Of a stretch of DNA of 10,279 bases, positions 751 through 9,689 are shown one piece after another. The position numbers and the translations under genes are program-made. The DNA is taken from positions 1 through 10,279 of the forward strand of contig JAHDSS010000400.1 of assembly GCA_018432565.1 (NCBI GenBank), given 5' to 3'. This stretch comes from Kiritimatiellia bacterium. Its GTDB lineage: Bacteria; Verrucomicrobiota; Kiritimatiellia; CAIQIC01; Lenti-01. The stretch's first letter is position 1; the number at the start of each line of letters is the position of its first letter. Under the pieces are notes generated by a model that was not told where the DNA came from, made no database searches, and saw nothing but the letters and a program-made list of their open reading frames with translations.

Positions 751-3141
751 ATGATGAATCACATGAAATGGGCCGCGGCGGTCGCGGTCGGACTGATGGC
801 AGGCGGCCTCTCCTGGACGATTGCGGCCAGTGCGCCGGATTCCTATCAGAAGATCGATGCCGAATCGCTCCAGCGCTCCCCCCAGAATGCCTGGGCCCGC
901 GCCATCCTGTTCTCCGACATCCTCGAATCCCGCCCCGGAGGCCGTGCCCGGCGCCTCGACCGGAAAACCTATCTGCCCATGCGCCTCAAGGCGGCCGGCA
1001 CGGTGTGGATTCCCGAAGACCTCTCCGACAAGTTCCAGGCCCTGGAACCGGGCGGCACCTATTCGTTCGCCGGCACCGTGGACCAGATCTCCCGCCGCTA
1101 TTATGTCATCGTGGATGCCTGCTATCGGGTCCAAACCACGGCGGACATGACCGAGCACTGGACGGACATGCTGAATCCGGAAACACAGAAGGCCAACCAG
1201 GCGGATGCGCTTTCCGAAACCGTCATGCAGGCGCTGCTGCTGAATGCCCAGAACAGCCTGATCAAGCTCGCCCAGGAGAGCAACGTGTCTGTAGGCCAGC
1301 TGATCGAAGCCCAGACCGACGGCGGGCAGCGCATTGCCGAGCATATCGTGGCGGATGCCCTGCAGGGCGAGCTGCGGGCCCAGGGCAAGACCGCCGATGA
1401 ACTGATGATCGGCGCCGTCCTTGCCCTGCTGCAGAAACAGGCCGTCCTCGATGAATCCGCGCGCGTCGCGGCGGAAAACGAAGCCGCCGCCGCCCGGGAA
1501 GTGGAAGCCGCCGCCGCGTCTGAATCACAGGCCGCCGCCGAGCCGGTTCCCGAGCCGGAGGAGCCGCCCCAGGAGGTGGCCGCCGTCAAGGAAGAGCCCG
1601 TAGACCAACCCGTCGAGATCCCCGAAGAAACCCCGCCGACACCCACTCCGGAAGCCGTCCTGCCGCCAAGCGAAACGGATATCGCCGCCGTCCAGCCGGA
1701 AACGCCGGAGGAAACCCCTCCGCCGCCTGTGCCCGAAGCCGTGGCCCCCGAAACCGATGGTGAAATGGCCGCGACATCCGAAACCGAGGTCGTTCCCAAA
1801 GCCATTCCGCCCGCCCCGGAACCGCAGACGGATCTGACGGCAGGGGATGGAGACGCCCCTGCGGAACCCGTGGCTGAAGAACCCGCGACTGCGGTGGAAA
1901 CCGATTTGGCCGCGCTTCTTCCTCCCGTGGAAGAACTGAATTCCGCTCCCGCCGATGGCGAACCGCCTCCCGAAACGCCGGAGGCGGAAACCCTCGCGGC
2001 TCGCTCCGGGAACGAAAACGCCGAACCGCCGCTGCCCGAGGAGCCGAAAGCCGATGCCGCCCCGGGAGAACCTCAGGCGGAAGCCGAAGCGATTTCCCTC
2101 CCGCCGCTTCCGGAAGGCGAGATGGCGGCCGAGCCCGTCGCCGTTCCGCCGTCCAGCATGCTGGTCGTACCGCTGACCGGCGATCCGCCCGATGTCGTCC
2201 CCATGGTCAGCACCGAACCCACCAAGGCCGAGCTGGCCCAGATGGAAAAGGAAGAACAGGCCCGCCTGAAGGAAGAACAGCGGCTGGCGCGCATTGAAGC
2301 CAAGCGGCTGGCCGCGGAGGAAAAGAAAGCCGCCGCCGAAGCCCGCAAGGCCGAACTGGCCCGCAAGAAGGCGGAAGAAATCAAGGCGCGCGAGGAAGAG
2401 GCTGCGCGCAAGGCCGCCGAATGGAAGGCCAAGCAGGAAGCCGCCCGGCTGGAAGCCGAAGCCAAGAAGGCCCTCAAGGAACAGGAACGCCTGCTGGCCG
2501 AACAGGAAAAGGAAGCGCTGGAAGCCGTCCGCCAGGCCGAAGAAATGGCCCGGCAGGAAGAAGAAGCCCGCCGCCTCCGCGAAGAATCCGAACAGCGCAT
2601 CGCCGAATTCGAAGCCCGCAAGGCCGCCGCCGAAGCCGCCCTGGCCGAAGCCGAGGCCCAGCGCCAGGCGGAACTCCAGCGGATTCAGGAAGAGGCCGAA
2701 GCCAAGGCGGCCGCCCAGGCTGCGGAAGAAGCTGCCCGGATCGCCGAAGAGGAAGCCCGTCAGGACGAAGCGCTGCGCATTGCCAAGGAAGTGGCCGAAC
2801 ACGAACGCCGGGCCGCGGAAGAAGCCGCCGCCCGCATTGCCGAAGAGGAAGCCGCGCGCCAGGCCGCCGAAGAACGGGTGGCCCAAATGAAACGCGAAAT
2901 CCAGGAAATGGAAGCCCGCCTGCGTCAGGCCGAATCCCTCCAGGCGGTGCCGGCCGCGCCCGCCCCCGCGGAACCACCGGCCGCTCCCGAGATGTCCGCC
3001 CGGGAACGCCGCCGCCTCGAGGCCGCCGAACGCAAGGCCCGGCAGGAAGCCGAAAAAGCCGCCGCCGCCCGGGAGCCGGCGGAAGAACCCCCGACGGAAC
3101 CCGGCGAACTCCCCGAATGGATGCAGCCTGTCGTATTCTAA
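751..3141 (+). CDS. Secreted or membrane-anchored Pro/Glu-rich, Ala/Glu coiled-coil protein of unknown function
   Basis: I do not recognise a named family. With the ATG at 751 (or 754, which is better spaced from AGGTGG at 741-746) the protein has about 796 residues. Residues 6-28 (KWAAAVAVGLMAGGLSWTIAASA) form a signal peptide or N-terminal anchor. Residues ~29-260 look globular. A stretch around 75-125 (AAGTVWIPEDL..GGTYSFAGTVDQISRRYYVIVDACY) reads as alternating beta strands, possibly OB-like (inference). Residues ~263-490 are low-complexity Pro/Glu/Ala. Residues ~490-730 are an almost uninterrupted Ala/Glu/Lys/Arg helix with heptad character, like the middle domain of TolA. A short Pro/Ala break and a second charged helix precede the C-terminus ELPEWMQPVVF. 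It is probably periplasmic and elongated. A TTG at 691 would extend the frame, but it coincides with the -35 hexamer and lacks a ribosome binding site. TolA or IgA-binding labels from database hits would reflect composition, not homology. Confidence 0.85.
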   Translation: MMNHMKWAAAVAVGLMAGGLSWTIAASAPDSYQKIDAESLQRSPQNAWARAILFSDILESRPGGRARRLDRKTYLPMRLKAAGTVWIPEDLSDKFQALEPGGTYSFAGTVDQISRRYYVIVDACYRVQTTADMTEHWTDMLNPETQKANQADALSETVMQALLLNAQNSLIKLAQESNVSVGQLIEAQTDGGQRIAEHIVADALQGELRAQGKTADELMIGAVLALLQKQAVLDESARVAAENEAAAAREVEAAAASESQAAAEPVPEPEEPPQEVAAVKEEPVDQPVEIPEETPPTPTPEAVLPPSETDIAAVQPETPEETPPPPVPEAVAPETDGEMAATSETEVVPKAIPPAPEPQTDLTAGDGDAPAEPVAEEPATAVETDLAALLPPVEELNSAPADGEPPPETPEAETLAARSGNENAEPPLPEEPKADAAPGEPQAEAEAISLPPLPEGEMAAEPVAVPPSSMLVVPLTGDPPDVVPMVSTEPTKAELAQMEKEEQARLKEEQRLARIEAKRLAAEEKKAAAEARKAELARKKAEEIKAREEEAARKAAEWKAKQEAARLEAEAKKALKEQERLLAEQEKEALEAVRQAEEMARQEEEARRLREESEQRIAEFEARKAAAEAALAEAEAQRQAELQRIQEEAEAKAAAQAAEEAARIAEEEARQDEALRIAKEVAEHERRAAEEAAARIAEEEAARQAAEERVAQMKREIQEMEARLRQAESLQAVPAAPAPAEPPAAPEMSARERRRLEAAERKARQEAEKAAAAREPAEEPPTEPGELPEWMQPVVF

Positions 3142-3160
3142 GCAGACCGGTGGATCCGGA

Positions 3161-3285
3161 TTTTCCACGGTGTGGAAAATGTTTTTCCATGGCGTGGAAA
3201 ACATCCGCCCTTTTTTTCCATAGTGTGGAAAACGTCCGTCTGTTTTTTCCACGGTGTGGAAAATGTTTTTCCACGGTGTGGAAAA
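3161..3285. promoter_or_regulatory. Array of five 19-bp palindromes (TTTTCCA-N5-TGGAAAA), probable multi-site operator upstream of manC
   Basis: Five copies sit at 3161-3179, 3183-3201, 3214-3232, 3245-3263 and 3267-3285. Copies 1, 4 and 5 are identical (TTTTCCACGGTGTGGAAAA, 8-bp arms and 3-bp centre). Copies 2 and 3 change only the 5-bp middle (TGGCG, TAGTG) and keep the 7-bp arms intact. Start-to-start distances are 22, 31, 31 and 22 bp, close to two and three helical turns, so all dyads face one side of the DNA. Linkers repeat too: TGT between copies 1-2 and 4-5, and related 12-mers (CATCCGCCCTTT, CGTCCGTCTGTT) around copy 3. The array fills most of the 157 bp between the coiled-coil gene and manC and ends 13 bp before the manC start. 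I infer cooperative binding of a dimeric regulator. Confidence 0.8.
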
Positions 3286-3298
3286 CCGGAGGCGCGGC

Positions 3299-4387
3299 AT
3301 GAGCCTGACCCACGCCTATGCGGTCATCATGGCCGGCGGAAAAGGCGAGCGCTTCTGGCCGCTGAGCACGTCGCGGCGTCCCAAGCAGCTGCTCGCGCTG
3401 GCGGGCGGCAAGCCCCTGATCGTCCAGGCCGTGGAGCGCCTGGCGGGAGTGATCCCGCCGGAACGGGTGCTGATTGTCACGAATGAATCCCTGGTGGCGC
3501 CCATCCGGGACCTGCTGGGGGAGGGGAGTCCGGTGGGGATTCTGGGCGAACCGGTCGGCCGGGACACCGCGGCCGCGATCGCCGCCGGCGCCGCCTGGAT
3601 CCGGCGGCGCGATCCGGAGGCCGTGTTCTGCGTTCTGACGGCCGACCATGTCATCGGCGATCTGCCGGTGTTCCGCGAGACCCTGGTGCAGGGCCTGACG
3701 CTTTGCGCCGCGCACGAGGTGCTGATGACCATCGGCATCGGCCCGACGGAGCCCAGCAGCGCCTACGGCTACATCGAGGCCGGTGCGCCCTGGCTGTCCT
3801 CCGGGGGCATCGAGTTCCACCGCGTGAGACGGTTTGTCGAAAAGCCCGATGCCGACACCGCCCGGCAGTACCTGGCCACGGGGCGCTATGCCTGGAATTC
3901 CGGCATGTTTGTCTGGTCCGTGCGCAGCATCCGCGCCGCCTTCGCCGAATTCCAGCCGGCGCTGGCCGAGCGGCTCGACGCGTGGTCGGCCTGCGCCGGC
4001 GACGCCGAATTCCAGGCGGCCCTGGAGCGGGATTTCCCCGACCTGCGCAAGATTTCCATCGATTACGCGGTGATGGAGAAGGCGCCGAACATCGTGATGT
4101 GCAAAGGGGCTTTTGCCTGGGACGATGTCGGCTCGTGGCCGGCGCTGGAATCACATCTGCCCGCAGACGGGCAGGGGAATGCCGTGCAGGGCGATGTCGC
4201 CGCCGCCGGCAGTTCCGGAAACATCGTGGTCAGCGACGGCCGGCTGACCGCGCTCGTGGGCGTTCGCGACCTGGTGGTCGTTCAGGCCGACGGCGTGACG
4301 CTGGTCTGCGACAAGGCGCATTCCCAGGACATCAAAACCCTGCTGGCGCAGCTGCGGGAACAGCCCGGACGAGAACCGATCCTGTAA
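3299..4387 (+). CDS. manC: Mannose-1-phosphate guanylyltransferase (GDP-mannose pyrophosphorylase)
   Basis: Converts mannose-1-phosphate and GTP to GDP-mannose and pyrophosphate in the cytoplasm, supplying mannose, fucose or rhamnose units for envelope polysaccharides. The 362-residue protein shows the nucleotidyltransferase signature [11 protein letters not shown] (13-23), EPVGRDTA (84-91), TADH (114-117), YGYIE (156-160), FVEKPD (179-184), YAWNSGMF (197-204), SIDYAVMEK (253-261) and WDDVGSW (274-280). Its length matches the single-domain form; the C-terminal phosphomannose isomerase domain of the ~470-aa bifunctional enzymes is absent. The ATG at 3299 is chosen because GGAGG (3288-3292) precedes it by 6 nt; the in-frame upstream extension would read through the palindrome array. 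The rubredoxin gene follows 40 bp later and may share the transcript. The five-palindrome array immediately upstream suggests dedicated transcriptional control. Confidence 0.94.
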
Positions 4388-4427: not shown

Positions 4428-4586
4428 ATGAAATACCTCTGCACCGTATGCGGCTACATCTATGATCCGGCCGTTGGCGATCCCGATGGCGGCATTGAAC
4501 CCGGCACCAAGTTCGAGGACATTCCCGACAGCTGGGTCTGCCCGGTGTGCGGCGTTGGCAAAGACTCCTTTGTCCCGCAGGACTGA
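4428..4586 (+). CDS. Rubredoxin
   Basis: A 52-residue one-iron electron carrier of the cytoplasm. Two CxxC knuckles, C5-TV-C8-GY and C38-PV-C41-G, supply the four cysteine ligands of the Fe(SCys)4 site. The intervening [13 protein letters not shown]...[15 protein letters not shown] segment is the standard aromatic-core pattern, and the length is typical of the family. The start is fixed by AAAGGAG at 4414-4420, 7 nt before the ATG. Rubredoxins in anaerobes donate electrons to rubrerythrin, superoxide reductase or rubredoxin:oxygen oxidoreductase; no such partner is visible here, so the physiological partner is unknown. The gene lies 40 bp after manC and is closed by a strong terminator, so it is likely the last gene of that transcription unit, although the functional link to GDP-mannose synthesis is not obvious. 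Confidence 0.97.
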
Positions 4587-5163: not shown

Positions 5164-6426
5164 TTAGTTGACCAGGGCCAGGCTCAGGGCGGGCCAATAG
5201 GTGATCAGAGCGAGCACGCCGAGCATCAGGCCCATCAGGGCCAGAGAGGCGGCGGCCAGCTTCATCAGGGGCCGATTGAGACGCATGGCCGCAATGAACA
5301 GGTTCATGCCGACGGGCGGTGTGCTGTATCCGATGGCCAGGTTGGCCAGGAAAATGATGGCGAGGTGCACCGGATCGATGCCGTAGCGAACCGCCAGCGG
5401 CGCCAGCAGCGGCACAATGACGATGGTGGCGGTATAGATGTCCATGATGCAGCCGACGGCCAGAAGGAACAGATTGAGCGCCATCAGGAAAACCAGCGGA
5501 TGGGTGATGCGGGCCCCCACCCATTCGAGGATGAGCTGGGGAACCTGTTCGAAAATCAGGAAATTGGTGATGGCCATGCCCATGCCCAGAATCAGCAGCA
5601 CGCCGCCGACCAGCACGACCGTATCCCGAACGATGAGCGTCAGACGGTGAACGGGAATTTCCCGGTAAACCAGCACTTCGATCACCAGCACGTAGGCGGC
5701 GGTCAGGACGGCGGCTTCGCTGGCCACCAGCCATCCGCTGTAAATGCCGCCGAGAACCACAAAGGGCAGCGGAATCTCCCACTTGGCCTCCCACAGGGCG
5801 GCGGCCAGTTCGCGTCCCCGGAAGGGATGCCGGGGAATGCGGGCGTGGATGCCGGCGCGGATGCCATAGAGACTGAGCACGGCCAGCGCCAGCAGGCCGG
5901 GCAGAACGCCGGCGCGGAAAACCGCCTGTACGGTCACGGAGGGCGAAATGGGCTGGGCGATGATGGCATACAGGATCAGGGGCAGGCTGGGCACAAACAG
6001 GACGCCCATGTTGCCGCCGGTGGTGACCAGGCCCAGGGCCGCCTTTTCGCGATAGCCGTCCTGCAGCAGCGCCGGCAGCAGCAGGCCGCCAAGCGCGACA
6101 ATCGTCACCCCGGAGGCCCCCGTGAAGGCCGTCATGAACGTGCAGGTGACGATGCACACCATGGCCAGTCCGCCGGGCATCCAGCCGAAGGCGGCGCGCG
6201 TGAGGCGCAGCAGGCGCTCGGAGGCACGGCTGCCGGCCAGCACGTAGCCGGCCAGGGCGAACATCGGCAGCGCCTGCAGCATCGGCATGTTGGTCAGGCG
6301 CGTGAGTTCGCCGATCACGATGGCGAAATCCATGCCGCCGGACTGGTAGGCCAGCATGGCCAGCGCGCCGAACACCGCGAACAGCGGCGCTCCGAGCAGG
6401 GCCAGGATGACAATGCCCCAGATCAT
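5164..6426 (-). CDS. dctM: TRAP transporter large permease subunit (DctM family)
   Basis: The 420-residue inner-membrane protein is the transport subunit of a tripartite ATP-independent periplasmic transporter, which uses an ion gradient (usually sodium) to import the ligand delivered by the periplasmic receptor. Nearly the whole length is hydrophobic helix, consistent with the 11-12 segment elevator-type fold. Family motifs are visible: MPMLQALPMFALAGYVLAG (48-66), FMTAFTGASGVTIVALGG followed by LLPALLQDGY (97-125), TTGGNMGVLFVPSLPLILYA (135-154) and YSTPPVGMNLFIAAM near the C-terminus. The start ATG (6426-6424) overlaps the dctQ stop in ATGA, implying translational coupling. It is the last gene of tatT-dctP-dctQ-dctM. 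The subunit identity is firm; the substrate cannot be read from this protein. Confidence 0.95.
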   Translation of the reverse strand: MIWGIVILALLGAPLFAVFGALAMLAYQSGGMDFAIVIGELTRLTNMPMLQALPMFALAGYVLAGSRASERLLRLTRAAFGWMPGGLAMVCIVTCTFMTAFTGASGVTIVALGGLLLPALLQDGYREKAALGLVTTGGNMGVLFVPSLPLILYAIIAQPISPSVTVQAVFRAGVLPGLLALAVLSLYGIRAGIHARIPRHPFRGRELAAALWEAKWEIPLPFVVLGGIYSGWLVASEAAVLTAAYVLVIEVLVYREIPVHRLTLIVRDTVVLVGGVLLILGMGMAITNFLIFEQVPQLILEWVGARITHPLVFLMALNLFLLAVGCIMDIYTATIVIVPLLAPLAVRYGIDPVHLAIIFLANLAIGYSTPPVGMNLFIAAMRLNRPLMKLAAASLALMGLMLGVLALITYWPALSLALVN

Positions 6427-6962
6427 GGCGAGGTTCTCCCCTCCCCCGGCATTTCACCGGGCTCGGGCGGCGGCAGCCAGGCCGAAGGCAGAAGCGCCTG
6501 CAGAGCGATGCGGAAGGACATGAGCCAGAAGGCCACGGGAATCACCATGAAATACTTCCAATGGGGCCAGCCGAGAAGTTCGCCCATGGCCATGTCGCGC
6601 TGGAATCCGACATAGCGTCCGGCGGCCCAGGCCAGAACACCGCACGCAACCGCGGCGAACAGCGATGTGACTCGCCGGATCCAGCCGGACCACCCGGACG
6701 GCAGCAGCGCGGCGGCCAGGTCAATGGCAATATGCCTTCCCCGGCCGGCGGCAGCCAGCGCGCCCAGCATGGTCAGCCACAGCAGGCCCATTCCCAGCAG
6801 CGGTTCGGCCCACGGGAAGCCGGTTTGCCACAGATTGCGCAGGAGAATCTGCAGCGCGGCCAGCATCACCATGGCCGTGACCAGCAGCGTCAGGATCGCG
6901 CGTTCCAGCCGGTCCGCCGCGTCCCGGATCCGGCGGCCGACTTTCGCCGCCCGCCCGCTCAT
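6423..6962 (-). CDS. dctQ: TRAP transporter small permease subunit (DctQ family)
   Basis: The 179-residue small membrane subunit pairs with DctM and helps anchor the permease. Four hydrophobic segments are visible at roughly residues 22-43, 52-72, 99-116 and 135-156. The hallmark GRGRHIAIDL (73-82, the family's R-x-x-HI-x-hydrophobic-D motif) and the WAEPLLGMGLLWLTMLGA segment (51-68) place it in DctQ. The start at 6962 is chosen because its ATG overlaps the dctP TGA as ATGA; longer in-frame extensions would run over the dctP coding region. Its own TGA overlaps the dctM start the same way. The C-terminal tail is Pro/Gly/Glu-rich (PPPEPGEMPGEGRTSP) and probably disordered. The substrate is unknown. 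Confidence 0.93.
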   Translation of the reverse strand: MSGRAAKVGRRIRDAADRLERAILTLLVTAMVMLAALQILLRNLWQTGFPWAEPLLGMGLLWLTMLGALAAAGRGRHIAIDLAAALLPSGWSGWIRRVTSLFAAVACGVLAWAAGRYVGFQRDMAMGELLGWPHWKYFMVIPVAFWLMSFRIALQALLPSAWLPPPEPGEMPGEGRTSP

Positions 6963-7957
6963 GAGCCGCGCCGTTCCTTCAGAACCGCCTGGAGCCGGTC
7001 CCAGGCCTCGGCCGAGAACACCTGGCCCTTGACCTTCTCCAGGGCCTGCGCGGCGATCCGCTCGAAATCCGCCCGGCCTTCCGGTGTTTCCGGGATGGGA
7101 GTCACGCCTTGCCCGCGCATGAACTCGAGCGCCTCGGCATCGCTTTGGCGCACCTTGGGCGTGAGCAGGCGGCAGTGCTTGTCGAAGGCGGCCTTCACGG
7201 CAGGCTGATGGCGCGCGGGCACCAGGTTCCAGCCGGCCTTCGACAGAAAGACGCCGCCGATCCCGTAGGTCAGTTTCATTTCGTAGAGGTAGCGGATGCG
7301 GGTGTGCCACTGGACGGCCACGGCGGCGGTGGGCGGGCCGAAAACCGTTTCCAGCGCGCCGGTCTGAAGGGACGGCAAGACGTCGGTGACGTTGGCCGGA
7401 ATGGAGGGAATGCGGCCGGCGCCGAACAGTTCGATCAGCATGGGCGAATCCAGGCCCCAGACCTTGGTGGCGCGCAGCTCGTCGAGATTGGAAAAGGGCT
7501 TCATGCTGTAGGCGTAGCTGAAGCCCACCTCGGTCCAGCCCAGGGCTTCATAGCCGTTGGCCCGGGCACCGGCTTCAAGAAATTCGCGCAGGGCCTCCAG
7601 GGCGGCATCGGCCTCGTCGTAACTGCGCAGCGCCAGCGGGAACATGAGCGCGCCGGCGTCCGGGCAGATGGCGCCGGTGGCGTAGCCCATGAAGCCTCCG
7701 CCGTGAAGCTGGCCGCTGCGGATTTTGAAGAGCACGTCCTTTTCGGTGCCCATGATGCCGCCGGGATAGATCCGCACCCGGACTTCGCCGTCCGTCGCCG
7801 CCTCGATTTCCTCCTTGGCGCTGTTCAGCGCCTGCATCCAGATGCTGCCATCCGGGGCCAGGGTGGCCAGATTCAGGCGCACCTGGGCCAGAACCGGCGC
7901 GGACGGCAGAGCCATGAGAAGCAAGAGGAACAAAAAACGCGGACGGATGGCGGGCAT
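6959..7957 (-). CDS. dctP: TRAP transporter periplasmic substrate-binding protein (DctP/TatP type)
   Basis: This is the periplasmic receptor that hands ligand to DctQM. The 332-residue protein begins with a signal peptide (1-24, ending PVLA|Q), followed by VRLNLATLAPDGSIWMQALNSAKEEIEAATDGEVRVRIYPGGIMG (26-70), the standard first lobe. The family block around 194-208 reads LPSLQTGALETVFGP. The ATG at 7957 is preferred because AGGAG lies a few bases upstream; a longer start at 7984 would overlap the tatT stop and remove a clean signal peptide start. At the place where classical carboxylate-binding receptors carry K-I-R the protein has K165-V-W167-GLDSP, so the usual ligand-carboxylate arginine seems replaced by tryptophan (recalled alignment). 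Together with the adjacent tatT gene, 13 bp upstream, this suggests the TatP subgroup and a hydrophobic or otherwise non-classical ligand. Confidence 0.93.
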   Translation of the reverse strand: MPAIRPRFLFLLLLMALPSAPVLAQVRLNLATLAPDGSIWMQALNSAKEEIEAATDGEVRVRIYPGGIMGTEKDVLFKIRSGQLHGGGFMGYATGAICPDAGALMFPLALRSYDEADAALEALREFLEAGARANGYEALGWTEVGFSYAYSMKPFSNLDELRATKVWGLDSPMLIELFGAGRIPSIPANVTDVLPSLQTGALETVFGPPTAAVAVQWHTRIRYLYEMKLTYGIGGVFLSKAGWNLVPARHQPAVKAAFDKHCRLLTPKVRQSDAEALEFMRGQGVTPIPETPEGRADFERIAAQALEKVKGQVFSAEAWDRLQAVLKERRGS

Positions 7958-7970
7958 GGAATCTCCTTTT

Positions 7971-8852
7971 CTAAAAGTACTCATCGATCTGATCGAGCAG
8001 TTCGCGGGCGCGCATCTGGGCCACGGCGTTCATCAGGGTGAACTCCGCCACGTCGGGGGCGGCATCCACCACGTCCTGCAGCGTGCGCTCGAACAGGTCC
8101 CGGTCGAAGGCGTAGCGTGCGTAGAATTCGGCAAAGGTCACGCGCGTCAGCAGATAGTCGGGACCGGCGATCTCCATGCTGCGTTCAAAATGCGCGCGGG
8201 CCTTATCGAGGTCGCGACCGCCGCCCAGCGGCAGCACGGTGTAGTAGATGCCGTAAAAAAGGTCCACGCCGCCCTGACGGATCCCGGGATCGAGTTCGCG
8301 CACGCGTTCCATCATGGCCAGGACCCGGGGCATGTCGCCGAGCGCGGCCGGAGAGTCCGAGTTGGCGATGATCCACATGACCCAGGCGGTGGCCGTGGTG
8401 ATCAGGGCCCGGGCATCGGCCTTGCGGAACGACTGCAGGCAGGCGGCAAAGGTATCAGCGTCGGCGTCGCGCGCCCGGGCAAACCGGGGATTGGTTTCGA
8501 TCAGCGTCCGCAGTCCGTAGTCCCGTGCTTTCCGGTACATCTGCCGGGCGCGTTCCCGCCGGGACTTGTCCACAAACGCCGTGGCATAGGCCAGCTGGGC
8601 TTCGGCCGCGGACAGCAGGACCGTCGGATTGTCGGGATGGGATTCGGCCAGCGCATCCAGCACCAGCAGGAAAGCCGGGGCGCCGTCGCGCACCAGTTCG
8701 ACGTCCTCCTGATGCATCAGGCCTTCGGAGAGCTGGCTGGCCATGGGCGAGATCATTCGGGCGGCGCCTTTGCGAATCAGCGCACAGCCGCTGCCCGGGA
8801 GCAGGGAGACCGCCAGAACGGCGGCAAGCAGGATGGAGGCAGAACGTTTCAT
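7971..8852 (-). CDS. tatT: TRAP-associated TatT-family helical repeat lipoprotein
   Basis: The 293-residue protein matches the TatT component of TPR-associated TRAP transporters, known from Treponema pallidum Tp0956, where it forms a trimer that binds the receptor TatP and is thought to shelter hydrophobic ligand. An N-terminal secretion signal ends in LLPGSGC with Cys23 as likely lipidation site; the -3 residue is Gly rather than Leu, so the lipobox is not ideal. The rest is alpha-helical with TPR-like pairs, for example RRERARQMYRKARDYGLRTL (98-117) and DLDKARAHFERSMEIAGPDY (214-233). The characteristic DADTFAACLQSF and DLFYGIYYTVLPLGGGRDLDKA segments are present. It is the first gene of the transporter operon, 13 bp before dctP. 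The family call rests on these segments and the context; lipidation is an inference. Confidence 0.85.
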   Translation of the reverse strand: MKRSASILLAAVLAVSLLPGSGCALIRKGAARMISPMASQLSEGLMHQEDVELVRDGAPAFLLVLDALAESHPDNPTVLLSAAEAQLAYATAFVDKSRRERARQMYRKARDYGLRTLIETNPRFARARDADADTFAACLQSFRKADARALITTATAWVMWIIANSDSPAALGDMPRVLAMMERVRELDPGIRQGGVDLFYGIYYTVLPLGGGRDLDKARAHFERSMEIAGPDYLLTRVTFAEFYARYAFDRDLFERTLQDVVDAAPDVAEFTLMNAVAQMRARELLDQIDEYF

Positions 8853-8900: not shown

Positions 8901-9689
8901 CTAGGCATCCAGCAGTCCCGGAAACGCCTGGCGCACCCGCTCGAGAGCGTCCGGCGCGGCATTCCGGGCCCGCAGCACCTCCAGCAGCGCCAGCAGGTCG
9001 TCGCCGCTGACATCGAAGCGGGCGGGTCGCGCCTTGAGGCGCTTGGCGGCGGTGCGGAAAGTCAGGGGGCGGGGCGCGGAACGGCCTTCGGGCTTCTCCA
9101 GGGACGCCAGCCGGGCTTCCAGCACGGCGCGTTCCTCGCCGGGGGGAGCCGACAGCACGGCGCGGCAAATGGCCTTGGCCTTGGCCCAGCTGATCTGTCC
9201 CTGCTCCAGCCGCCGCCGCACGCGCGGATCCATTCCCGGCGCATACCGCAGGATGTCTTCCACCCAGGCCTCTGACTTGTCCAGAAAGCGGGCGATCCGT
9301 CCCGGTTCCCAGTTGGCGTTGGACATGAACAGAATGGCGTCGAAATAGTCGGTAATGCGCGCATCCAGGCGGTCGGCGTTCAGCTTCAGGTTCAGCGCCT
9401 GGATTTCATCGAGATCCCCCTGGATGACGCGGACATCCACGCGGTCGAAATAGCCCGGGTTGCGCGACCGGATCCGGCGGATGGCGGCGTGGCGGTGAAA
9501 TCCACCGACCAGGAAAAACTCTCCCGGATTCCGTTCCCAGACCACGATCGGCTCCAGCAGGCCGTTGGCGAGGATATCTTCGGCGTAATGCGCAACCTTG
9601 GCTTCCTGCAGGGGGCGGTGGTTGGCGACCGACGGGTGCAAATGCACCTGGTCGAAGGGCACATAATCGAAACGTTTCGTAGCCAGCAT
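8901..9689 (-). CDS. Orphan ParB-fold (ParB/Srx nuclease-fold) DNA-binding protein
   Basis: The 262-residue protein has an N-terminal ParB-type domain: VHLHPSVANHRPLQE (15-29), Y-AEDILANGLLEPIVVWER (35-53) and GEFFLVGGFHRHAAIRRI (56-73). The GGFHRHAA box (62-69) corresponds to the nucleotide-binding GERRxRA motif of ParB CTPases. A helix-turn-helix-like stretch follows (WEPGRIARFLDKSEAWVEDILRY, 127-149), then ISWAKAKAICRAVL (166-179), which parallels the ParB linker helices. The C-terminal ~60 residues are charged and helical. The ATG at 9689 has AGGAG about 8 nt upstream. No parA lies beside it, so it is probably not the main segregation ParB; it may be an accessory DNA-binding regulator. 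A 12-bp palindrome (CGAAACGTTTCG, 9668-9679) lies inside its first codons. Function beyond nucleotide and DNA binding is not assignable. Confidence 0.85.
   Translation of the reverse strand: MLATKRFDYVPFDQVHLHPSVANHRPLQEAKVAHYAEDILANGLLEPIVVWERNPGEFFLVGGFHRHAAIRRIRSRNPGYFDRVDVRVIQGDLDEIQALNLKLNADRLDARITDYFDAILFMSNANWEPGRIARFLDKSEAWVEDILRYAPGMDPRVRRRLEQGQISWAKAKAICRAVLSAPPGEERAVLEARLASLEKPEGRSAPRPLTFRTAAKRLKARPARFDVSGDDLLALLEVLRARNAAPDALERVRQAFPGLLDA

Follow-up and report, generated by a model that had tools for sequence, protein, structure and literature searches.

Dispersed, phased palindrome arrays with lineage-specific arms in Kiritimatiellae genomes

The five palindromes ahead of a manC-like gene in a Kiritimatiellia bacterium belong to a genome-wide population of phased arrays, whose palindrome recurs in every genome sampled from the order and whose arms have been switched genome-wide in two genomes, G012 and G003, one of these switches being accompanied by hybrid half-sites. 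Such genome-wide motif swaps point to co-evolution between the sites and a DNA-binding protein. We give about an even chance to the reading that the arrays are dispersed sets of putative double-stranded binding sites for a co-evolving, dimeric, chromosome-wide architectural protein, and that they spread like REP/BIME repeats.

In the window (the whole stretch of 10,279 nucleotides analysed), TTTTCCA-N5-TGGAAAA occurs five times with exact arms, at starts 3161, 3183, 3214, 3245 and 3267, where 0.15 copies are expected by chance and none of 200 shuffles reaches five; a sixth copy is absent from the whole window even when three mismatches are allowed. The steps are 22, 31, 31 and 22 bp, and the linkers consist of TGT, used twice, and two related 12-mers, CATCCGCCCTTT and CGTCCGTCTGTT. 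In all these points, from the positions and exact arms to the repeated linkers and the lack of any other full copy, the motif scan agrees with the sequence-only reading that had singled out this array. That reading also described the array as symmetric about its third copy, which holds for the spacing but not for the half-sites: these read TTTTCCAC or TTTTCCAT, and the site types along the array are C/C, T/C, T/C, C/C and C/C. The symmetry of the window array is one of spacing only. Its 5' edge lies 19 bp past the stop codon of an Ala/Glu-rich gene, and its 3' edge 13 bp ahead of the manC-like ATG, with CCGGAGG in between. The features are as follows:

751–3141, plus strand: Ala/Glu-rich coiled-coil-like protein, without Pfam family (start codon from our own gene call)
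3155–3160: TCCGGA, left array border, a frequent border in the source genome (30 left and 32 right ends among 86 arrays)
3161–3179: site 1, core CGGTG, C/C type, head site
3180–3182: linker TGT, 3 bp (22-bp step)
3183–3201: site 2, core TGGCG, T/C type
3202–3213: linker, 12 bp (31-bp step)
3214–3232: site 3, core TAGTG, T/C type
3233–3244: linker, 12 bp (31-bp step)
3245–3263: site 4, core CGGTG, C/C type
3264–3266: linker TGT, 3 bp (22-bp step)
3267–3285: site 5, core CGGTG, C/C type
3286–3292, plus strand: CCGGAGG, right array border; it overlaps GGAGG, the likely ribosome-binding site of manC
3299–4387, plus strand: mannose-1-phosphate guanylyltransferase-like protein (manC; PF00483, PF22640)
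8901–9689, minus strand: orphan ParB/Noc-like protein (best NCBIfam matches nucleoid_noc, E 5e-4, and parB_part, E 2e-3)

In the source genome assembly, which comprises 2.51 Mb in 604 contigs and is 82.9% complete, the palindrome is present in 205 exact copies, compared with none for the reversed control. Our array analysis covers the window and 76 site-bearing contigs, together 608,621 bp with 204 of the 205 exact sites. Including near copies, these sites group into about 86 arrays of 1 to 9 sites each, a count slightly inflated by near-duplicate contigs, since L165 and L193 have a common 120-bp flank and a second ParB-like copy with 96% identity lies on contig C25. Steps of 22 bp (75), 31 bp (80) and 30 bp (13) make up 168 of the 178 steps, and five of the 86 arrays show the 22-31-31-22 pattern of the window. 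Taken over all within-array pair distances and not just neighbours, phasing peaks at 10.3–10.4 bp with a vector length of 0.874, which bears out the earlier proposal that the dyads fall on roughly the same helix face. The central five bases, previously regarded as the varying part between exact arms, do differ from site to site but are themselves constrained, reading Y-R-S-Y-R in 200 of the 204 exact sites. We also observe that some longer linkers (steps 42–43) hold a further small palindrome (CTGCTGAAGCAG or CCCGCTTCAGCGGG type):

L124:4795–4855, longer linker with second palindrome
L130:11514–11605, longer linker with second palindrome
L145:2034–2095, longer linker with second palindrome
L163:2097–2157, longer linker with second palindrome

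Throughout the genome, arrays that have a single terminal short step show polarity, a C/C head being followed by T/C sites. In the 35 arrays that have a 22-bp step at one end only, oriented short step first, site 1 is C/C in 32 of 35, site 2 is T/C in 31 and site 3 in 33 of 35, and site 4 is T/C in 7 of 9. T/T sites are scarce (6 of 251, versus about 26 expected from the half-site frequencies). A comparable order, in which site 2 is sometimes C/C, is found in some named metagenome-assembled genomes (MAGs; for example CALMBO, JAAZFE, JAQUJC and SABN, with 1 to 5 usable arrays each). The T-half lies on the opposite side in DMJA, JAKLIL, part of JAAZBB and one of the three usable G002 arrays, and polarity is missing from MAGs whose cores are A-type.

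Canonical sites are present in 28 of 28 genomes sampled from the order (source genome included), at 1 to 718 sites each, so that the impression that such palindromes recur in related genomes proved right; among class genomes outside the order, two of ten carry sites (7 and 3). A scan of named genomes with a pattern admitting steps of 22 to 31 bp returned at least 103 stretches, sorted into at least 31 contig prefixes, and the matches listed come mostly from MAGs titled Kiritimatiellae, Lentisphaerae or Verrucomicrobia. Among these listed matches the cores are genome-specific, and 31-bp steps recur in MAGs with other cores, within the 22–31 limits of the pattern itself.

Changing the sites recognised by a chromosome-wide protein is considered difficult, since hundreds must change together. 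In G012, 14 canonical sites and one hybrid stand beside 152 copies of TTTTACG-N5-CGTAAAA, and its genus-mate G013 carries 177 canonical, 104 hybrid and 34 new sites. The new motif occurs in just three of 38 genomes (the third, G016, with one copy), and the hybrid TTTTCCA-N5-CGTAAAA, outside G013, in G014 (19) and once each in G012, G008 and G019, the other 33 genomes having none. In G003, 20 canonical sites compare with 545 copies of TTTGCC-N7-GGCAAA, a motif found 0 to 3 times in each of the other 37 genomes; the steps listed for it, mostly of 30 and 44 bp, agree less well with a 10.4-bp turn. With old motif, hybrids and new motif spread across related genomes, the path of a switch becomes readable and testable. 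We note that the G003 arrays L282, L369 and L370 are built of 2+2 palindromes, with 11-bp linkers and partly shared 25-bp linkers.

Some arrays lie in frame inside genes, namely a TilS-like gene, an OppB-like permease, a nucleotidyl transferase and a membrane-protein-like frame without Pfam family; a fifth candidate, an ABC-protein frame (L193), was left out, its array probably lying before the true start. Two of these intragenic positions are kept between genera or families. In tilS, 14 of 16 same-family loci hold canonical sites (at most two mismatches), an in-frame reading being shown for 12 of the 14, and of the 54 sites in these 14 genomes 43 have exact arms. The tilS arrays differ in copy number, spacing pattern and encoded peptide. 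Those of G005 and G012 retain one canonical site each, with two mismatches, and in G012 the degenerate old site is accompanied by two new-type sites in the old 31-bp register; tilS of G003 uses its own dialect, and that of G004 has no sites. The permease position is common to the source genome and G018 (families f1 and f3), with different cores. Exact arms at old positions despite changed linkers suggest selection on the sites as double-stranded DNA. The intragenic arrays also suggest a DNA-level constraint within coding sequences.

Linkers reveal that the arrays also spread by copying. Between arrays, the mean best match of oriented 12-bp linkers is 9.64 of 12 positions, versus 8.95 (sd 0.09) in a column shuffle, and 18 of 73 linkers match at 11 or more positions, versus 3.6 in the shuffle, seven linkers that could not be oriented being left out. 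One 31-bp hybrid unit is common to four of the G013 arrays read, and in two G003 arrays the first 19 bases of the 25-bp linker are identical. Part of the uniformity of the arrays therefore stems from copying, and the idea of unrelated linkers, and hence of no copying, is overturned by the similarity above the column shuffle. By eye, 11 of 14 G013 contig starts (L351–L364, picked for a nearby array) begin with one of a few common sequences directly abutting an array, which would suit a multi-copy insertion element located in or next to arrays; the insertion element ISPpu9, described as found in REPs, offers a comparison. A phage origin is rejected, since 2.9 million viral contigs yield a single match for a site pair. 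In that match (L326:3427–3510; IMGVR_UViG_3300035698_006241) the array seemingly lies, by eye, inside the frame of a small HTH-like protein, and it could be host DNA.

Placement relative to genes shows no lean toward starts. Using our own codon-model calls on contigs first cut at arrays, a procedure by which intragenic arrays count as same-strand pairs, we find that 77 arrays with both neighbours called fall into 55 same-strand, 11 convergent and 11 divergent pairs, not significantly different from 394 background pairs (314, 39 and 41). Divergent pairs look depleted solely against background gaps of at least 100 bp (11 of 77 versus 33 of 126, p 0.054). Where the neighbours are tandem and no call is open-ended (42 cases), the arrays split into 21 closer to the upstream stop and 21 closer to the downstream start, so that the comparison with start codons proposed with the original observation comes out even. 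REPs sit close to stop codons, and in G020, a genome of another family, intergenic arrays make up 32 of 48; of these, 27 are non-divergent, and all but one of the 27 (26) have a stop codon no more than 30 bp away. Its other 16 arrays are called intragenic, most near called gene ends. Asymmetric cores of the source genome read T..G 55 times and C..A 52 times on the sense strand, and this lack of wobble bias speaks for a role as DNA and argues against an RNA hairpin.

The manC locus itself is patchy. In 13 same-family relatives, the region upstream of manC carries an array in four (G002, G007, G008 and G015), a degenerate remnant in two (G016 and G012) and nothing in seven; in G014, outside this set, two near-copies with one and two mismatches precede manC (L252). 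Similarly, three array loci of the source genome are comparable in 20 arbitrarily chosen G002 contigs, and the array is kept at one. A manC-specific operator is rejected in view of the placement in all gene orientations, the missing start preference and the frequent absence at relatives' manC. Of the earlier proposal, a cooperative operator or architectural site controlling manC, the multi-site, phased, cooperative-looking arrangement stands and "architectural site" fits, but control of manC is not supported, given about 86 arrays. The array before manC is probably an ordinary member of the population that affects manC just incidentally.

The search for a binding protein covered the ParB/Noc-like protein of the window, Y1 transposases and array-adjacent genes, and identified no cognate binder among them. 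The ParB/Noc-like protein scores far below the cut-offs of the nucleoid_noc and parB_part families. Its gene occurs in 17 of 38 genomes, all 17 array-bearing; it was not found in eight genomes with at least 55 sites (G001, G017, G018, G020, G021, G022, G024 and G025, including two that are no more than 84% complete) or in the genomes of family f2, and its helix-turn-helix is nearly constant in the switched genome G012. With array-rich genomes in which the gene was not found and a helix-turn-helix barely altered in G012, it is a weak candidate only. Y1/HuH transposases are present in 35 of 38 genomes, including eight of ten outside the order, while G005 (86% complete) has 72 sites and no Y1/HuH match; the distribution of a Y1/RAYT partner does not track the arrays.

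A co-occurring regulator had also been suggested as something to look for. Among 20 array-downstream genes scanned with Pfam (of 44 listed), none is a known transcription regulator and seven have no family, which sets aside an autoregulated regulator of known type among them; of those with a family, one encodes RuvC and another a topoisomerase VI A-like protein. Ten array-adjacent proteins of other genomes likewise include no regulator (three have no family), and in 466 array-adjacent proteins, with coarse gene calls, no family is array-adjacent in more than three genomes. The gene caller used for this regulon comparison seemed to mis-pick strands in GC-rich contigs, and its orientation counts were set aside. 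We note that one topoisomerase VI subunit A/Spo11-like gene (L170:5164–6294, plus strand) begins 29 bp behind an array. Confinement to a macrodomain is rejected from G018, whose 57 sites are spread over nine unordered contigs of 178 to 547 kb.

No description of such arrays was found in open-access literature at the level of titles and abstract beginnings, and an earlier description is possible. REP/BIME elements are high-copy, mainly extragenic, clustered palindromes with species-specific sequence families, intragenic units among them (PMC3733652), and REPIN repeats co-evolve with a cognate RAYT (TnpA-REP) protein (PMC8266576). The arrays resemble them in being high-copy, mainly extragenic, clustered palindromes with dialects that spread by copying within a genome, and differ in lacking a GTAG/CGTC tag (one GTAG and one CGTC within 7 bp of 502 half-sites) and a Y1/HuH transposase that tracks them, and in having fixed 22/31-bp steps, polarity and a graded half-site switch. 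Rickettsia palindromic elements are likewise found in frame within unrelated genes (PMC10969869), as are some arrays here, but they are about 150 bp long with a conserved peptide, whereas here 19-bp sites form mostly intergenic arrays and the peptide is not conserved. parS and NBS palindromes are bound two-fold symmetrically, and ParB/Noc specificity can be switched by four residues (PMC7383237); NBS are scattered around the chromosome (PMC4331003). Unlike the palindromes here, parS and NBS are 16-bp sites without a 1-bp centre, and phased polar arrays are not mentioned for them in the available part of the text (PMC7383237). The ParB-like protein near the window array, moreover, does not co-vary with the arm switch, and the sites of G018 show no confinement to a chromosome domain.

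If the arrays serve an architectural protein, one dimer would occupy each palindrome, and dimers would line up along one helix face, starting at the C/C head site, to form a polar filament, which would organise or mark the chromosome and would not switch single promoters. The specificity of the protein may drift per lineage, the sites following by half-site mutation and by the copying of fitting units. Exact arms, quantised steps, polarity, long-kept intragenic positions and an arm switch with hybrids count in favour of such a protein. Against it count the binder not found and the window candidate, which failed two checks; the linker likeness from copying, the G003 steps and the stop-codon hugging in G020; and the orthologous loci often without an array, with tilS of G005 and G012 reduced to one degenerate canonical site each. 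A bolder version, which we put forward tentatively as a possibility, is an order-wide Kiritimatiellae architecture system whose putative protein would nucleate at the C/C head and polymerise directionally across phased palindromes, at anything from scores to hundreds of loci with fixed intragenic positions included, its specificity having been rewritten genome-wide at least twice with hybrid intermediates in one living lineage. If true, this would be a nucleoid or repeat-handling protein new to science, in a little-studied bacterial class.

Alternatively, a trans-acting enzyme could copy intact repeats as in REP/REPIN-like mobile palindromes, phasing and dialects being by-products of the copied unit. 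This would accommodate arrays present or absent at orthologous loci, the common linkers and TCCGGA borders, the shared G013 hybrid unit and G003 linker pair, the genome-specific dialects and the G020 positions; we nevertheless consider it rather unlikely, given the missing tag, Y1/HuH proteins that occur irrespective of arrays and lack a match in array-bearing G005, the strict 22/31 steps and polarity, and tilS arms that stay exact after linkers, copy number and frame have diverged. That a global transcription factor uses the palindromes as hundreds of operators, one of them at manC, is improbable. Its operators would be palindromic, phased and cooperative-looking, as the sites are, and the window array reaches the likely ribosome-binding site of manC. 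Yet the arrays are not preferentially upstream of genes: 11 of 77 lie between convergent genes and some within genes, and neither a regulator among the scanned downstream genes nor a shared regulon emerged. Among known systems, the multi-site operators of Lrp/AsnC, NrdR and ArgR space palindromes two or three helical turns apart, but they are promoter-bound and have few sites.

Two further explanations carry little weight. That the palindromes mark DNA for uptake or self-recognition, in dialects that differ by lineage and are maintained by biased uptake, would suit their hundreds of copies, their dialects and the single viral match, and is very improbable, as phased, polar, multi-site arrays in mostly intergenic positions would be unexpected of uptake words. 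RNA hairpins or bidirectional terminators, for which the stop-codon proximity in G020 speaks, are the least credible of all: the cores show no wobble bias, no consistent U-run directly follows the stem by eye, and arrays occur within coding sequence and before starts.

Elsewhere in the window, a small Cys-rich gene 3' of manC (4428–4586, plus strand) is presumably rubredoxin-like, judging from its motif; by eye, a similar gene comes next after manC in 11 of the 12 relatives with a readable downstream side. A TRAP transporter cluster, comprising DctM, DctQ, DctP and a TAtT-type component, occupies 5164–8852 on the minus strand.
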